In this document: positions 22,430 to 26,499 of the stretch, piece by piece
How the letters are laid out: every line of letters begins with the position of its first letter
Numbering within the stretch: the stretch's first letter is position 1
DNA from: Candidatus Schekmanbacteria bacterium
GTDB lineage: Bacteria > CSSED10-310 > JACPHN01
Assembly (NCBI GenBank): GCA_016188575.1
Contig: JACPHN010000009.1
Coordinates: 1-48,313, forward strand
DNA length: 48,313 nt
Direction: 5' to 3'
Made by a program: the position numbers and the translations under genes
Notes under the pieces: generated by a model
Told to the model about the DNA's origin: nothing
Database searches by the model: none
The model's input: only the letters and a program-made list of their open reading frames with translations

Positions 22430-22630
22430 ATGAGCACAGCCGCCATGACGGTGCAGGAGGTCGCCGAGTACCTGAACGTCGATCCGATTAAGGTGTGCCG
22501 GCTCGTGAATCGCGGGGAGTTGCCCGGGTTCAAGGTGGGCGGTAGCTGGCGGTTCCAGAATAACGACCTCGATGACGGGATCACCAGGCAGAAGGCGGCG
22601 GCAGCCAACAAAGAGGGCGACGAACGATGA
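22430..22630 (+). CDS. Excisionase/MerR-type helix-turn-helix protein
   Basis: 66 residues. TVQEVAEYLNVDPIKVCRLV followed by RGELPGFKVGGSWRF is the HTH_17 (excisionase-family) fold, with the wing residues GxWRF. Such proteins bind DNA as transcription regulators or as recombination directionality factors. No integrase is present in the window, and the gene heads a defence-type operon, so a regulator is more likely. AAGGA lies six bases before ATG 22,430. The chimeric ORF begins 55 bp downstream. Confidence 0.8.
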   Translation: MSTAAMTVQEVAEYLNVDPIKVCRLVNRGELPGFKVGGSWRFQNNDLDDGITRQKAAAANKEGDER

Positions 22631-22685: not shown

Positions 22686-23171
22686 ATGAGCACGGAGCTG
22701 CAGCCGCGCGAGGGCATGATGGCCGTCGTCCGAAACCGCCGCGCCATGATCACCGACGTTCAACCCTACGATGCCGCCGAGCACGGCAGGTTCCACCTGG
22801 TAGAGGTCGACTATACCGATGGCCTGGGCCAGGAGTGCATCGACGCGGCGGCCGCGGACCGGGACGCCGGTATCCGGGCGTTCGCCGCGCAGAACGGCGG
22901 CGACGGCTGGCTGCTGCCGGAGACCCTGCGCCTCGCCGACCACGACCTCGGGCACGACGACCGCGCTCGTCAGCCGCAACCTGCCGCGAGCGCATTGGGG
23001 CCCCGCTTCCTGGACTGGCAGCTCGCGCCGACTCCCGAGGAGAGCTGGGCGGAGTGTGAGCGGCACGCCAAGGCCCTCCTGGAAGGCATGCCGGCCCCCG
23101 CGGTAACCTCCGGTCCCAAGGCACAGGCCCCCCCACCGCCACTGCGCACCCCTATGGACGAGGAAGCGTAG
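22686..23171 (+). pseudogene. Chimeric remnant: SNF2-helicase-like start joined to methylase-like C-terminus
   Basis: An open 161-residue frame in two unrelated parts. Residues 1-43 (MMAVVRNRRAMITDVQPYD, then HLVEVDYTDGLGQ) resemble the N-terminus of SNF2-type helicases of the DrmD kind. Residues about 70-130 (WLLPETLRLADHDLGHDDRA and GPRFLDWQLAPTPEESW) resemble the C-terminal end of Eco57I-type DNA methylases seen in defence loci. Neither has a catalytic core. An internal deletion joining the start of one gene to the end of the next explains this. Family assignments are from memory and moderate. Its stop is eight bases before the AAA gene start, and it could still be translated. Confidence 0.45.
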
Positions 23172-23179
23172 GAGTCCAC

Positions 23180-24517
23180 ATGTTCAAGAAGCTCTATCTC
23201 CGCAACATGAAGGTCTGGGGCGACCAGCTCTGGGACGAGGGCGTCGAGGTGGCGCCCGTGACGCTGCTGCTCGGTGCGAACAGCGCAGGCAAGACCTCCA
23301 TCCTGCAGCTCCCCCTGCTGCTGAAGCAGACTTTCGAGTCACCGGACCGGCACCTCGATCTCAACCTCGGCGGCCAGCAGACCGACATCGTGGATCTCGG
23401 TACGTACAAGGACCTGATCCACGGCCACGACACGAGCCGAGAGTTGGGGCTCGGGATCGAGGCCGAGGTCCCGGGCACGCCCCTGGTATCGCTGTCCTAC
23501 CGGGTGACCTACACGCTGGCCGCTGGCGCTCCGGTCGTCCAGCAGCTCGATCTGACCGAAGACGATCAGACCTACGGAGTGGAGCGCCAGTCCAAGGGCG
23601 GGTATCGGCTCCATGCGCCAGAATACGAGTCCCGAATGAGGGGCCAGCGCCGCGATGCGCGGCGCAGTTTCCAGCCCGAGCGGTCGCTGATGTTCTCGAC
23701 CGAGGCGCTGGCCGAGTTGGGCCGGGACGGCAGCCACGTCCAGGATCTCGCGCTGCGCGTCATGAAGGTGATGGGCTCGCTCACGTACCTCGGCCCGCTG
23801 CGCGAGCGCCCCGTGCGCAGCTACATGTGGAGTTGCCAGAGCCCCGGAGAGATCGGGAGCCGCGGCGAGCGCGCCGTGCATGCACTGTTGGCGAGCGCAA
23901 ACGCCCGGACGAAGCGCAAGGAGGGCGAGGAAGGTGGCCAGGGCTGGCTGGTCGAGAAGGTGTCGGAGTGGCTGGCGAGGATGGGCGTCGCCGATGCGCT
24001 CGTCCCGGAACGTCAGGGCCGCTCCCGCTTCTTCGAGGTCATCATCGAGGGCGAAGGACACCGCGCGAACATCATGGACGTCGGCTTCGGAGTGTCGCAG
24101 GTGCTCCCGCTGCTTGTTCTCGCCTACTTCGTGCCCAGAGGAGCCACGATCATCGCTGAGCAGCCGGAGATTCACCTGCACCCGCGCGCGCAGGTTGGGC
24201 TTGCCGAGCTGATGGTGGAGGTCTCCCGCGAGCGGGGGGTGCAGTTCCTCGTCGAGACGCACTCCGAGCACATCTTCCGCAGGCTGCAGTTCCTCATCGC
24301 CGACCAGAAGCTGACCAGGGACAAGTGCCGTCTCTACTTCGTCGATCGGCCGAAAGGACGGGCCGCCGAGCTGCGCCGTTTGAATGTGGACGACTTCGGG
24401 CGCGTCGCCGAGTGGCCCGAGCGCTTCTTCGGGGACGCTGCCGGCGAGACGGAGCGGCAGATGCGTCGCATGATGGCGCGTCTGCGAGCTGGCGAGGGCA
24501 GGGGCGACGGTGGCTGA
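23180..24517 (+). CDS. DUF3696-type AAA (OLD-like/SMC-like) ATPase
   Basis: A 445-residue ABC/SMC-class ATPase. Walker A GANSAGKTS (32-40), signature-like DVGFGVSQVLP (300-310), Walker B TIIAEQPEIHLHP (323-335) and the H-loop VETHSEHIFRR (358-368) are all intact. The C-terminal VDDFGRVAEWPERFF matches the DUF3696 tail. No TOPRIM nuclease domain is attached, so the nuclease is probably the PIN protein encoded next. The start at ATG 23,180 is supported by TAGGAG five bases upstream. The last eight bases overlap the PIN gene, implying coupled translation and probably a complex. Related ATPases act as sensors and assembly platforms in several anti-phage systems. Confidence 0.9.
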   Translation: MFKKLYLRNMKVWGDQLWDEGVEVAPVTLLLGANSAGKTSILQLPLLLKQTFESPDRHLDLNLGGQQTDIVDLGTYKDLIHGHDTSRELGLGIEAEVPGTPLVSLSYRVTYTLAAGAPVVQQLDLTEDDQTYGVERQSKGGYRLHAPEYESRMRGQRRDARRSFQPERSLMFSTEALAELGRDGSHVQDLALRVMKVMGSLTYLGPLRERPVRSYMWSCQSPGEIGSRGERAVHALLASANARTKRKEGEEGGQGWLVEKVSEWLARMGVADALVPERQGRSRFFEVIIEGEGHRANIMDVGFGVSQVLPLLVLAYFVPRGATIIAEQPEIHLHPRAQVGLAELMVEVSRERGVQFLVETHSEHIFRRLQFLIADQKLTRDKCRLYFVDRPKGRAAELRRLNVDDFGRVAEWPERFFGDAAGETERQMRRMMARLRAGEGRGDGG

Positions 24518-25705: not shown

Positions 25706-26499
25706 ATCCCGTCGCCTTCACCGCGTCCGTCGTCGACGACTTCCTTCGCTATCAGCTCACGACTTACACGCTGGCGGACGTGGACCTGTACGCGCAGATG
25801 CAGGGGCTGCTCTCGCTCGACGTGTCCCGCGACACCCCGCTGCGCGCGGGTCCCTTCATCAGCCTGTCGAAGCCCTTCAAGCAGGGCGATGCCATCGAGA
25901 GCCTGGTCACCGAGGGCATCTTCCACCCGCATATGGAGACGCTGGTCCCGTACCCAAACCTCCGAGCGCACCAAGCCAGGGCCATTCGGGCCATCCACCA
26001 GGGGAAGCACGCCCTGGTCGCACGGGTACCGGCTCAGCCAAGACCGAGGCCTTCCTCTACCCGATCATCAGCCGCTGCCTGGAGACGAGGGACGAGCTTG
26101 CCGTTCCCGGCATCGCAGCGGTGCTCGTCTACCCGATGAACGCCCTGGCCGCGGACCAGCTCGACCGGCTCCGAGGGTTGTTGGCCGACAGCGGGATCCC
26201 CTTCGGCATGCACGTGGGCAAGACCCCGGAGAAGGAGGCTCAGGTCGAAGGCGAGCGACTGCCGGCGGGCAGCTCCCGCCGACTACCTCGCCCGCCTGGC
26301 GCAGCTCCGCGAAGCAGGCCAGGCGACCGTCCTGCGCCCGCCCGAGGAATGCGCCAGCCGCGAGGTCATACGAAAGCCCGGCGGCCAGCCGCGCATCCTG
26401 CTCACGAACACCAAGATGCTCGAGCTGCCGCTAACCCGCGGCAAGGACGTGCACCTCTTCGACGACGCGCCGCTCGCGCTCCCGGTCTACGACCAATAG
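25696..26499 (+). pseudogene. N-terminal part of an Lhr-like helicase, two frameshifts, truncated at the DEAH box
   Basis: It starts at ATG 25,696 with CGGAGG upstream, and LRAHQARAIRAIHQGKHALVA leads to Walker A. One base appears lost near 26,024 (GTCGCACGG where GTCGCCACGG is expected), after which TGTGSAKTEAFLYPIISRCL and VYPMNALAADQLDRLRGLL continue in another frame. A second shift near 26,275 leads to ADYLARLAQLREAG and PRILLTNTKMLELPLTRGKD. The sequence stops at LPVYDQ-stop, exactly where VFDEAHT would normally begin. Walker A reads GTGSAKTE rather than GSGKT. The gene cannot make a working helicase. Confidence 0.75.

Follow-up and report, generated by a model that had tools for sequence, protein, structure and literature searches.

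The open reading frame (ORF) at 22686-23171 of the window, by which we mean the whole analysed stretch of 48,313 nucleotides from Candidatus Schekmanbacteria bacterium, is, judged from its sequence, a clean fusion scar in which a deletion has joined the ends of two unrelated genes. We consider it quite probable that a nested cargo has outlived its host here. The host, a defence array, lost about 7.6 kb and its third gene decayed; the intact trio of ATPase, PIN nuclease and RNA ligase genes is probably self-sufficient, and the fusion itself is most likely functionless. The stretch lost would extend from codon 50 of the first array gene into the second, of which about 110 codons are left at the end; the third gene would be decayed and would lack its distal 1700 codons. 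The features are collected in Table 1.

Table 1. Features around the fusion ORF in the window, and contents of the corresponding slot at related loci (L numbers).
Feature	Position	Strand	Evidence or remark
Excisionase-type helix-turn-helix (HTH) protein, 66 aa, intact, first host-operon gene	22430..22630	+	Pfam HTH_17 2e-12
Mini-ORF, 20 codons	22627..22689	+	ATGA overlaps with HTH stop and fusion start; could be meaningless
Fusion residues 1-50	22686..22835	+	DrmD/ArmA-type SNF2 helicase N-terminus; 84% identity to L022, 51 aa, E 4e-21
Deletion junction, codon 51	22836..22838	+	Alignments to relatives
Fusion residues 52-161 and stop codon	22839..23171	+	DrmMI/ArmB-type (type IIG-like) methylase C-terminus
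DUF3696 AAA/ABC-type ATPase, 445 aa, intact	23180..24517	+	PADLOC HEC-03B 8e-92 (residues 1-427); Pfam AAA_15, AAA_21, DUF3696
PIN-fold nuclease, 167 aa	24510..25013	+	PADLOC HEC-03A 3e-11 over residues 59-152
RNA ligase, 231 aa	25010..25705	+	Pfam PF09414, 6e-32
YprA/DruE-type helicase remnant, first ~268 of ~1980 residues	25696..26499	+	Similarity ends at 26496, at motif II
Slot in L010			DarT, DarG (DarTG), PDC-M50A and ThsB genes
Slot in L021	10381-13556		NsnA and NsnC (Menshen)
Slot in L016	10560-15532		MkoA and MkoB (Mokosh)
Slot in L020	11614-13254		HEC-01A-like ATPase

The fusion ORF lies on the forward strand and is open throughout its 161 codons. A preliminary description of this DNA took it for a chimera of a SNF2-helicase start and a methylase end and proposed separate searches with the two parts, and these searches bear the idea out, each part matching its own gene family. 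Residues 1-51 match the SNF2/DrmD N-terminus of L006 (59% over 71 aa, E 4e-19) and seven further SNF2/DrmD N-termini (67-74%, E 3e-17 to 6e-14). The rest matches the methylase C-termini of L005 (80% over 71 aa, E 4e-30) and L004 (65% over 104 aa, E 2e-32), and with PADLOC residues 59-138 correspond to positions 1420-1499 of a methylase model of 1524 positions (E 6e-25). This two-part homology is far beyond chance. In the protein alignment the DrmD similarity reaches up to E50 and the methylase similarity begins at I52, with one codon unassigned between them; the helicase start, put at about 43 residues before, is thus right in kind and is 50 residues long. Is there any single family that covers the whole ORF, which had been named beforehand as the observation to speak against a chimera? 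Pfam and NCBIfam gave no match for the ORF at E up to 1, and the PADLOC match spans residues 59-138 only, so such a family was rejected. Both parts are little changed at columns invariant among relatives, with 0/24 in the SNF2 part and 4/39 in the methylase part. The latter equals the highest value among the relatives (0-4 of 35-39), and the C-terminal tail is weakly conserved even between full methylases.

How much DNA has been lost? A similarity scan of genome contigs with the fusion ORF gave 24 loci, three of them found via the first part (L022, L023, L025) and 21 mainly or only via the second. With the parts searched separately by tblastn, 14 of these loci (L004-L008, L011, L012, L014-L016, L018, L020, L021, L025) have both, widely separated and in the order of the fusion, and a Synechocystis plasmid (L002) also carries both parts apart. 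A further genome, G036, has them in two separate open frames, of 1164 and 1786 codons, on one contig with the matches about 7.9 kb apart. The closest first-part match, L022, carries a SNF2 gene of full length (1101 aa) with no adjoining methylase, and its next ORFs run in the opposite direction. The distance from E50 to I52 is about 7.55-7.77 kb in seven of the eight loci measured (about 7697 bp in L004, 7553 in L005, 7772 in L006, 7595 in L007, 7550 in L008, 7580 in L011 and 7598 in L021), and about 8909 bp in L020, where an extra gene is present. The deletion of several kb suggested earlier is therefore confirmed, and the comparison with intact loci that was advised places the junction at codon 51. 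The ends of the deletion can be given to the codon and not to the base, because no intact relative of the same family is among the genomes listed; seven genomes of the same phylum are listed and none of them matched, and 123 of the 145 genomes without a match lie outside that list.

The missing DNA was also sought in the window's own genome, which is about 94% complete. A query with the methylase middle matches only the fusion ORF. Other places similar to SNF2 are 27-37% identical, or are pieces of 50-117 residues at 38-57%, and YprA matches besides the remnant are partial and at most 50% identical. These SNF2, methylase and YprA queries thus gave no sign that the genome contains the array a second time.

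There is a further question, what kind of array this was. In L011 the order is a small ORF, SNF2 helicase, methylase, ATPase, PIN and a third helicase of 2009 aa. With PADLOC, its SNF2 helicase (1092 aa) matches DrmD at 2e-189 and BrxHI/BrxHII at 2e-68, and its methylase (1607 aa) matches REase_MTase_IIG at E 0, DrmMI at 1e-126 and PglX at 3e-7. For its third helicase DruE3 is by far the better match (1e-106; DrmA 1e-16), and this helicase has the MZB domain PF09369. The BrxHII/RapA-like SNF2 gene, the PglX-like methyltransferase and the Druantia-closest YprA helicase of ARMADA are all present in L011. The ancestral array was probably ARMADA-like and related to DISARM, with the order HTH, SNF2 (ArmA/DrmD), methylase (ArmB/DrmMI), cargo slot and YprA/DruE helicase (ArmC). 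No ARMADA type is assigned, because in L004 and L011 no GajB-like ArmD was found within the 1.3-1.4 kb that follow the helicase. A similar HTH frame is found directly before the SNF2 gene in L004, L005 and L007; the HTH protein of the window matches PADLOC mad1 at 3e-4 and NCBIfam MADS1 at 1e-14, the latter under the cut-off. The mini-ORF that follows it is absent in the seven relatives examined. Of the core genes, 50 residues of the SNF2 helicase, 110 of the methylase and the first 268 or so of the YprA helicase, in broken form, are left over in the window, and the locus fails as a working ARMADA, none of its three core genes being intact. Bell et al. (2025 preprint, PMC12458937) report that an E. 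coli type II ARMADA lost its protection when any of its four genes was deleted. With all three core genes broken, the array of the window should thus be dead.

The slot between methylase and third helicase holds the trio also in L003, L004 and L008. In L007 and L009 the trio reaches up to the contig ends, the PIN match of L007 covering residues 100-165 only, and in L005 and L011 the slot holds ATPase and PIN with no ligase matched by tblastn. Other relatives have other genes there, and in L014 and L015 only a gap of about 0.3 kb is found. Since the genes in the slot vary so much across relatives, the slot is exchangeable. In L010 the ligase is reduced in frame to residues 2-27 and 199-230 (L010:7819-8007), directly before a full-length YprA helicase; here the situation of the window is reversed, with the ligase lost and the host array kept. 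In an Acinetobacter array (L041:8001-9366; L088, CP119212.1) an HNH endonuclease replaces the ligase after ATPase and PIN, and the reading frames of YprA, methylase and ATPase are each split; the order in L088 is YprA, SNF2, methylase, ATPase and PIN.

All three genes of the trio are full length in the window, with their motifs kept. The ATPase shows a weak PADLOC match to AriA (2e-19) and one match among solved structures, the OLD-family endonuclease 6p74 (3e-5). For the PIN product, Pfam gave no PIN domain match, a profile of the PIN alignment found nothing relevant among solved structures, and Foldseek with the AlphaFold2 model (mean pLDDT 92.2) returned nothing under E 0.001, its weak matches including some PIN entries. 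With the same model VIA-align ranked VapC21 best (Z 10.1, rmsd 2.7, 119 aligned) and further VapC at Z about 9, and its top 14 rows were all VapC, PIN or toxin-antitoxin entries. The acidic residues D7, D54, E62, D107, D110 and D131 are invariant in 13 sequences. On the predicted structure, the PIN fold of this protein is confirmed and we regard it as settled. In the ligase the nucleotidyl-transfer motifs are present (EEKIDG, EG, RAKLV); its sequence gave no match among solved structures at E 0.01.

Then has selection retained the trio after the host was lost, as was supposed in the preliminary description? In the window, 1/44 invariant columns are changed in the ATPase, 1/15 in the PIN nuclease and 0/45 in the ligase, 2/104 in total, versus 13/103 in the helicase remnant (Fisher p = 0.003, which is indicative, the columns being treated as independent and the sets differing in diversity). 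Thirteen helicase relatives show 0-4 changes of 90-94, in a comparison of the first 300 residues per relative that includes L003, cut by a contig end, and L012 and L018, which may be shorter than full length. The remnant is divided into three frame segments by two frameshifts, near 26022 and 26276; its Walker A has changed from GSGKT to GSAKT (G115A) and the DE of its motif II to DQ (E268Q), and it is without the distal 1700 or so codons. With embedded relatives only, 8/202 columns of the trio are changed versus 22/147 of the near helicase set (p = 4e-4); here other carriers of the trio show up to 28/104 (L008 ATPase) and 14/36 (L004 PIN), and helicase relatives at most 9/134. These embedded-only trio columns are weak constraints, because other carriers deviate as much as the window or more.

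The most serious alternative is that neutral decay is under way, and the whole array including the trio is dying, with only the recent date of the deletion accounting for the intact trio. We hold this for possible, on the doubtful side. The fusion parts have hardly decayed, so the scar may be young, and if it is young the intact trio says little about selection. The contrast in frameshifts, two in 0.8 kb of helicase and zero in 2.5 kb of trio, would arise by chance with a probability of about 0.06 at one common rate and is not decisive. Against neutral decay, the helicase remnant is changed at catalytic positions while the motifs of the trio are kept, and trios standing free elsewhere show the module persisting by itself. 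There is thus support, not proof, for retention of the trio by selection: the column contrast and the free-standing trios speak for it, and a young deletion would weaken it.

Does the trio occur without any array? Apart from the window, the order ATPase-PIN-ligase without array was found at ten loci: plasmids of Azotobacter (L037), Aeromonas (L038), Rhodococcus (L039) and Tistrella (L040), the viral contigs L047, L049 and L050, and the genomes L084-L086. Among 53 plasmid records with a ligase match, L037-L040 and L089 were examined; of the 28 viral contigs matched 17 were examined, and the whole trio is present in three of these. The ATPase of L040 is more divergent, with 12/55 columns changed. 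In the stretches examined, no array genes were detected beside the ten free trios, except for the scars described below. Among genomes with the ligase, other than that of the window, one of four (L087) is without a matching ATPase or PIN, and extending the census to 20 genomes in the phyla of G186 and G118 gave one more ligase match, in G386. On each of two viral contigs an ORF stops 1-3 bases short of the ATPase (L049:4862-6064 and L050:1-1218); from a reading of its residues, with no profile, it looks like a tyrosine recombinase or integrase.

Two of the ten loci bear a methylase-end scar like the window, which makes three lineages together. In the Azotobacter plasmid pAcX50e (L037:11584-12081), a 165-aa ORF overlapping the ATPase start has YprA residues 1-136 fused in frame to a methylase tail. 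The YprA part scores 345 against 28.7 +/- 4.6 for shuffles; the tail, residues 128-165, scores 59 against 21.5 +/- 4.1 (highest of 1000 = 40) and resembles that of the Acinetobacter array L088. In the Aeromonas plasmid L038 and the near-identical L089, a methylase tail with broken frames lies before the ATPase of an intact trio. At the other eight loci no methylase-end scar was detected in the stretches examined. These findings support that the scar-bearing free trios descend from embedded trios by loss of the host. Frame is kept in the scars of the window and L037 and in the ligase scar of L010, and broken in L038/L089. Selection for an open scar frame was considered and is not claimed, as three or more frame-keeping scars among four would arise by chance with a probability of about 0.11 if each has odds of 1/3.

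Another explanation makes the trio an accessory of the ARMADA-like array, with no function once the array is gone. In the embedded cases seen the trio lies directly downstream of the methylase; the ATPase overlaps the methylase in L007, and the two form one continuous reading frame in L005 (5591-11758, 2055 codons) and L008 (5552-11779, 2075 codons), which suggests a functional tie of the ATPase to the host array. However, the ten free-standing loci, eight of them with no detected scar, and the arrays that have other defence genes or a gap of about 0.3 kb in place of the trio make this explanation unlikely.

The fusion might also be a new functional protein, for instance a leader or regulator of the trio. 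Its frame is open and its codon use resembles that of the neighbours, with a third-position GC of 0.86; yet it consists only of the first 50 helicase and the last 110 methylase residues, the tail is poorly conserved in full methylases, and the analogous Aeromonas scar is frame-broken, so that we give this very little weight. Hardly any credit is due either to a misjoin of two array fragments in metagenomic assembly: the assembly is fragmented (275 contigs), but assemblers join sequences at long shared words and the parents share at most about one codon at the junction in the protein alignment to relatives, no methylase middle turns up elsewhere in the genome, the helicase downstream is broken in its own right, and the complete record of pAcX50e has a like fusion.

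It was also suggested that the open frame and the spacing of 8 bp keep the trio translated. The spacing is correct, with eight bases between the fusion stop TAG (23169-23171) and the ATPase ATG (23180). The suggestion as worded is unsupported: a ribosome-binding-like AGGAG (23170-23174) overlaps the stop codon and ends five bases before the ATG, so translation of the ATPase need not depend on the frame of the fusion, and the broken Aeromonas tail before an intact trio agrees with translation independent of that frame. By chance alone the frame would be kept in 1 of 3 cases. Continuous ribosome traffic through the fusion may still help against transcription termination.

If the cargo has outlived its host, how could it work? 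The trio would still be expressed from the old promoter of the HTH operon or via the ribosome-binding site before the ATPase. In PARIS an ATPase gates a nuclease, and we borrow the gating idea from there: the ATPase may sense infection and hold or release the PIN nuclease, which could cut RNA, perhaps tRNA. The ends left by PIN/VapC RNases are a 5'-phosphate and a 3'-OH, and ends of this kind are joined by Rnl2-type ligases. With such cuts from the PIN nuclease, the ligase could seal them directly and so repair leak cutting or help recovery. Since the end chemistries match, the trio is chemically a cut-and-reseal set, and given its anatomy we put the chance of an ATPase-gated mechanism of this kind at about even. 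A role in phage defence would follow from the HEC-03 family, the embedding and the presence on mobile elements. A wider and more tentative scenario, to which we give somewhat less than an even chance, is that array collapse is a recurrent route that frees the nested module, in at least three lineages (the window, pAcX50e and the Aeromonas plasmids, with two in-frame helicase-methylase chimeras), and that the trio is a cut-and-reseal RNA defence that rides inside arrays and survives them.

Which of this is already known? ARMADA and embedded candidates are; the ligase-bearing trio and the repeated scars of host loss are added here. As described in PMC12458937, ARMADA shares with the relatives of the window a BrxHII/DrmD-like SNF2, a PglX/DrmMI-like methylase and a YprA helicase closest to DruE; unlike the system, the window has its three core genes destroyed. 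The word 'ligase' is absent from the main text of that paper, and two of its Results sections mention no cargo of defence genes between the methylase and the YprA helicase, a position where an in-operon cargo slot of ARMADA-like arrays is shown here. DISARM class 1 has DrmD-like and DrmMI-like proteins in common with the array. In DISARM, DrmA and DrmB are separate genes, whereas the third gene of the array encodes one DruE-like protein of about 2000 aa. MADS membership was rejected: the HTH protein and ATPase of the window match the MAD1 and MAD3 models far under the curated cut-offs, with 54.5 of 80 bits and 42.9 of 420 bits. PARIS (AriA ATPase and AriB nuclease; PMC12409363) shares an ABC-type ATPase beside an RNase, a pairing known as sensor and effector, but its nuclease is Toprim and not PIN, and the window has an RNA ligase in addition.

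The nearest named candidate is PADLOC HEC-03 (Hma-embedded candidate 3), which the ATPase and PIN nuclease match as HEC-03B and HEC-03A; in the window the pair belongs to an ARMADA-like array, not Hma, and has an RNA ligase added to it, which leads to the specific and testable cut-and-reseal hypothesis. Defence candidates are now sought as genes nested in known systems. The window is the converse natural experiment, with the host system lost and its nested genes still in place; this is evidence that these genes are a unit of their own. No antiviral test of HEC-03 is among the literature matches listed; in a passage of PMC12988326 HEC-06 is named as tested, and PMC13356809 contains the name HEC-03 once. 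Titles and abstract starts among these matches mention no module of DUF3696 ATPase, PIN and RNA ligase. Further DUF3696-related ATPases, 30-41% identical over C-terminal parts, are encoded elsewhere in the window's genome (G000 contigs C196, C59, C112 and C14).
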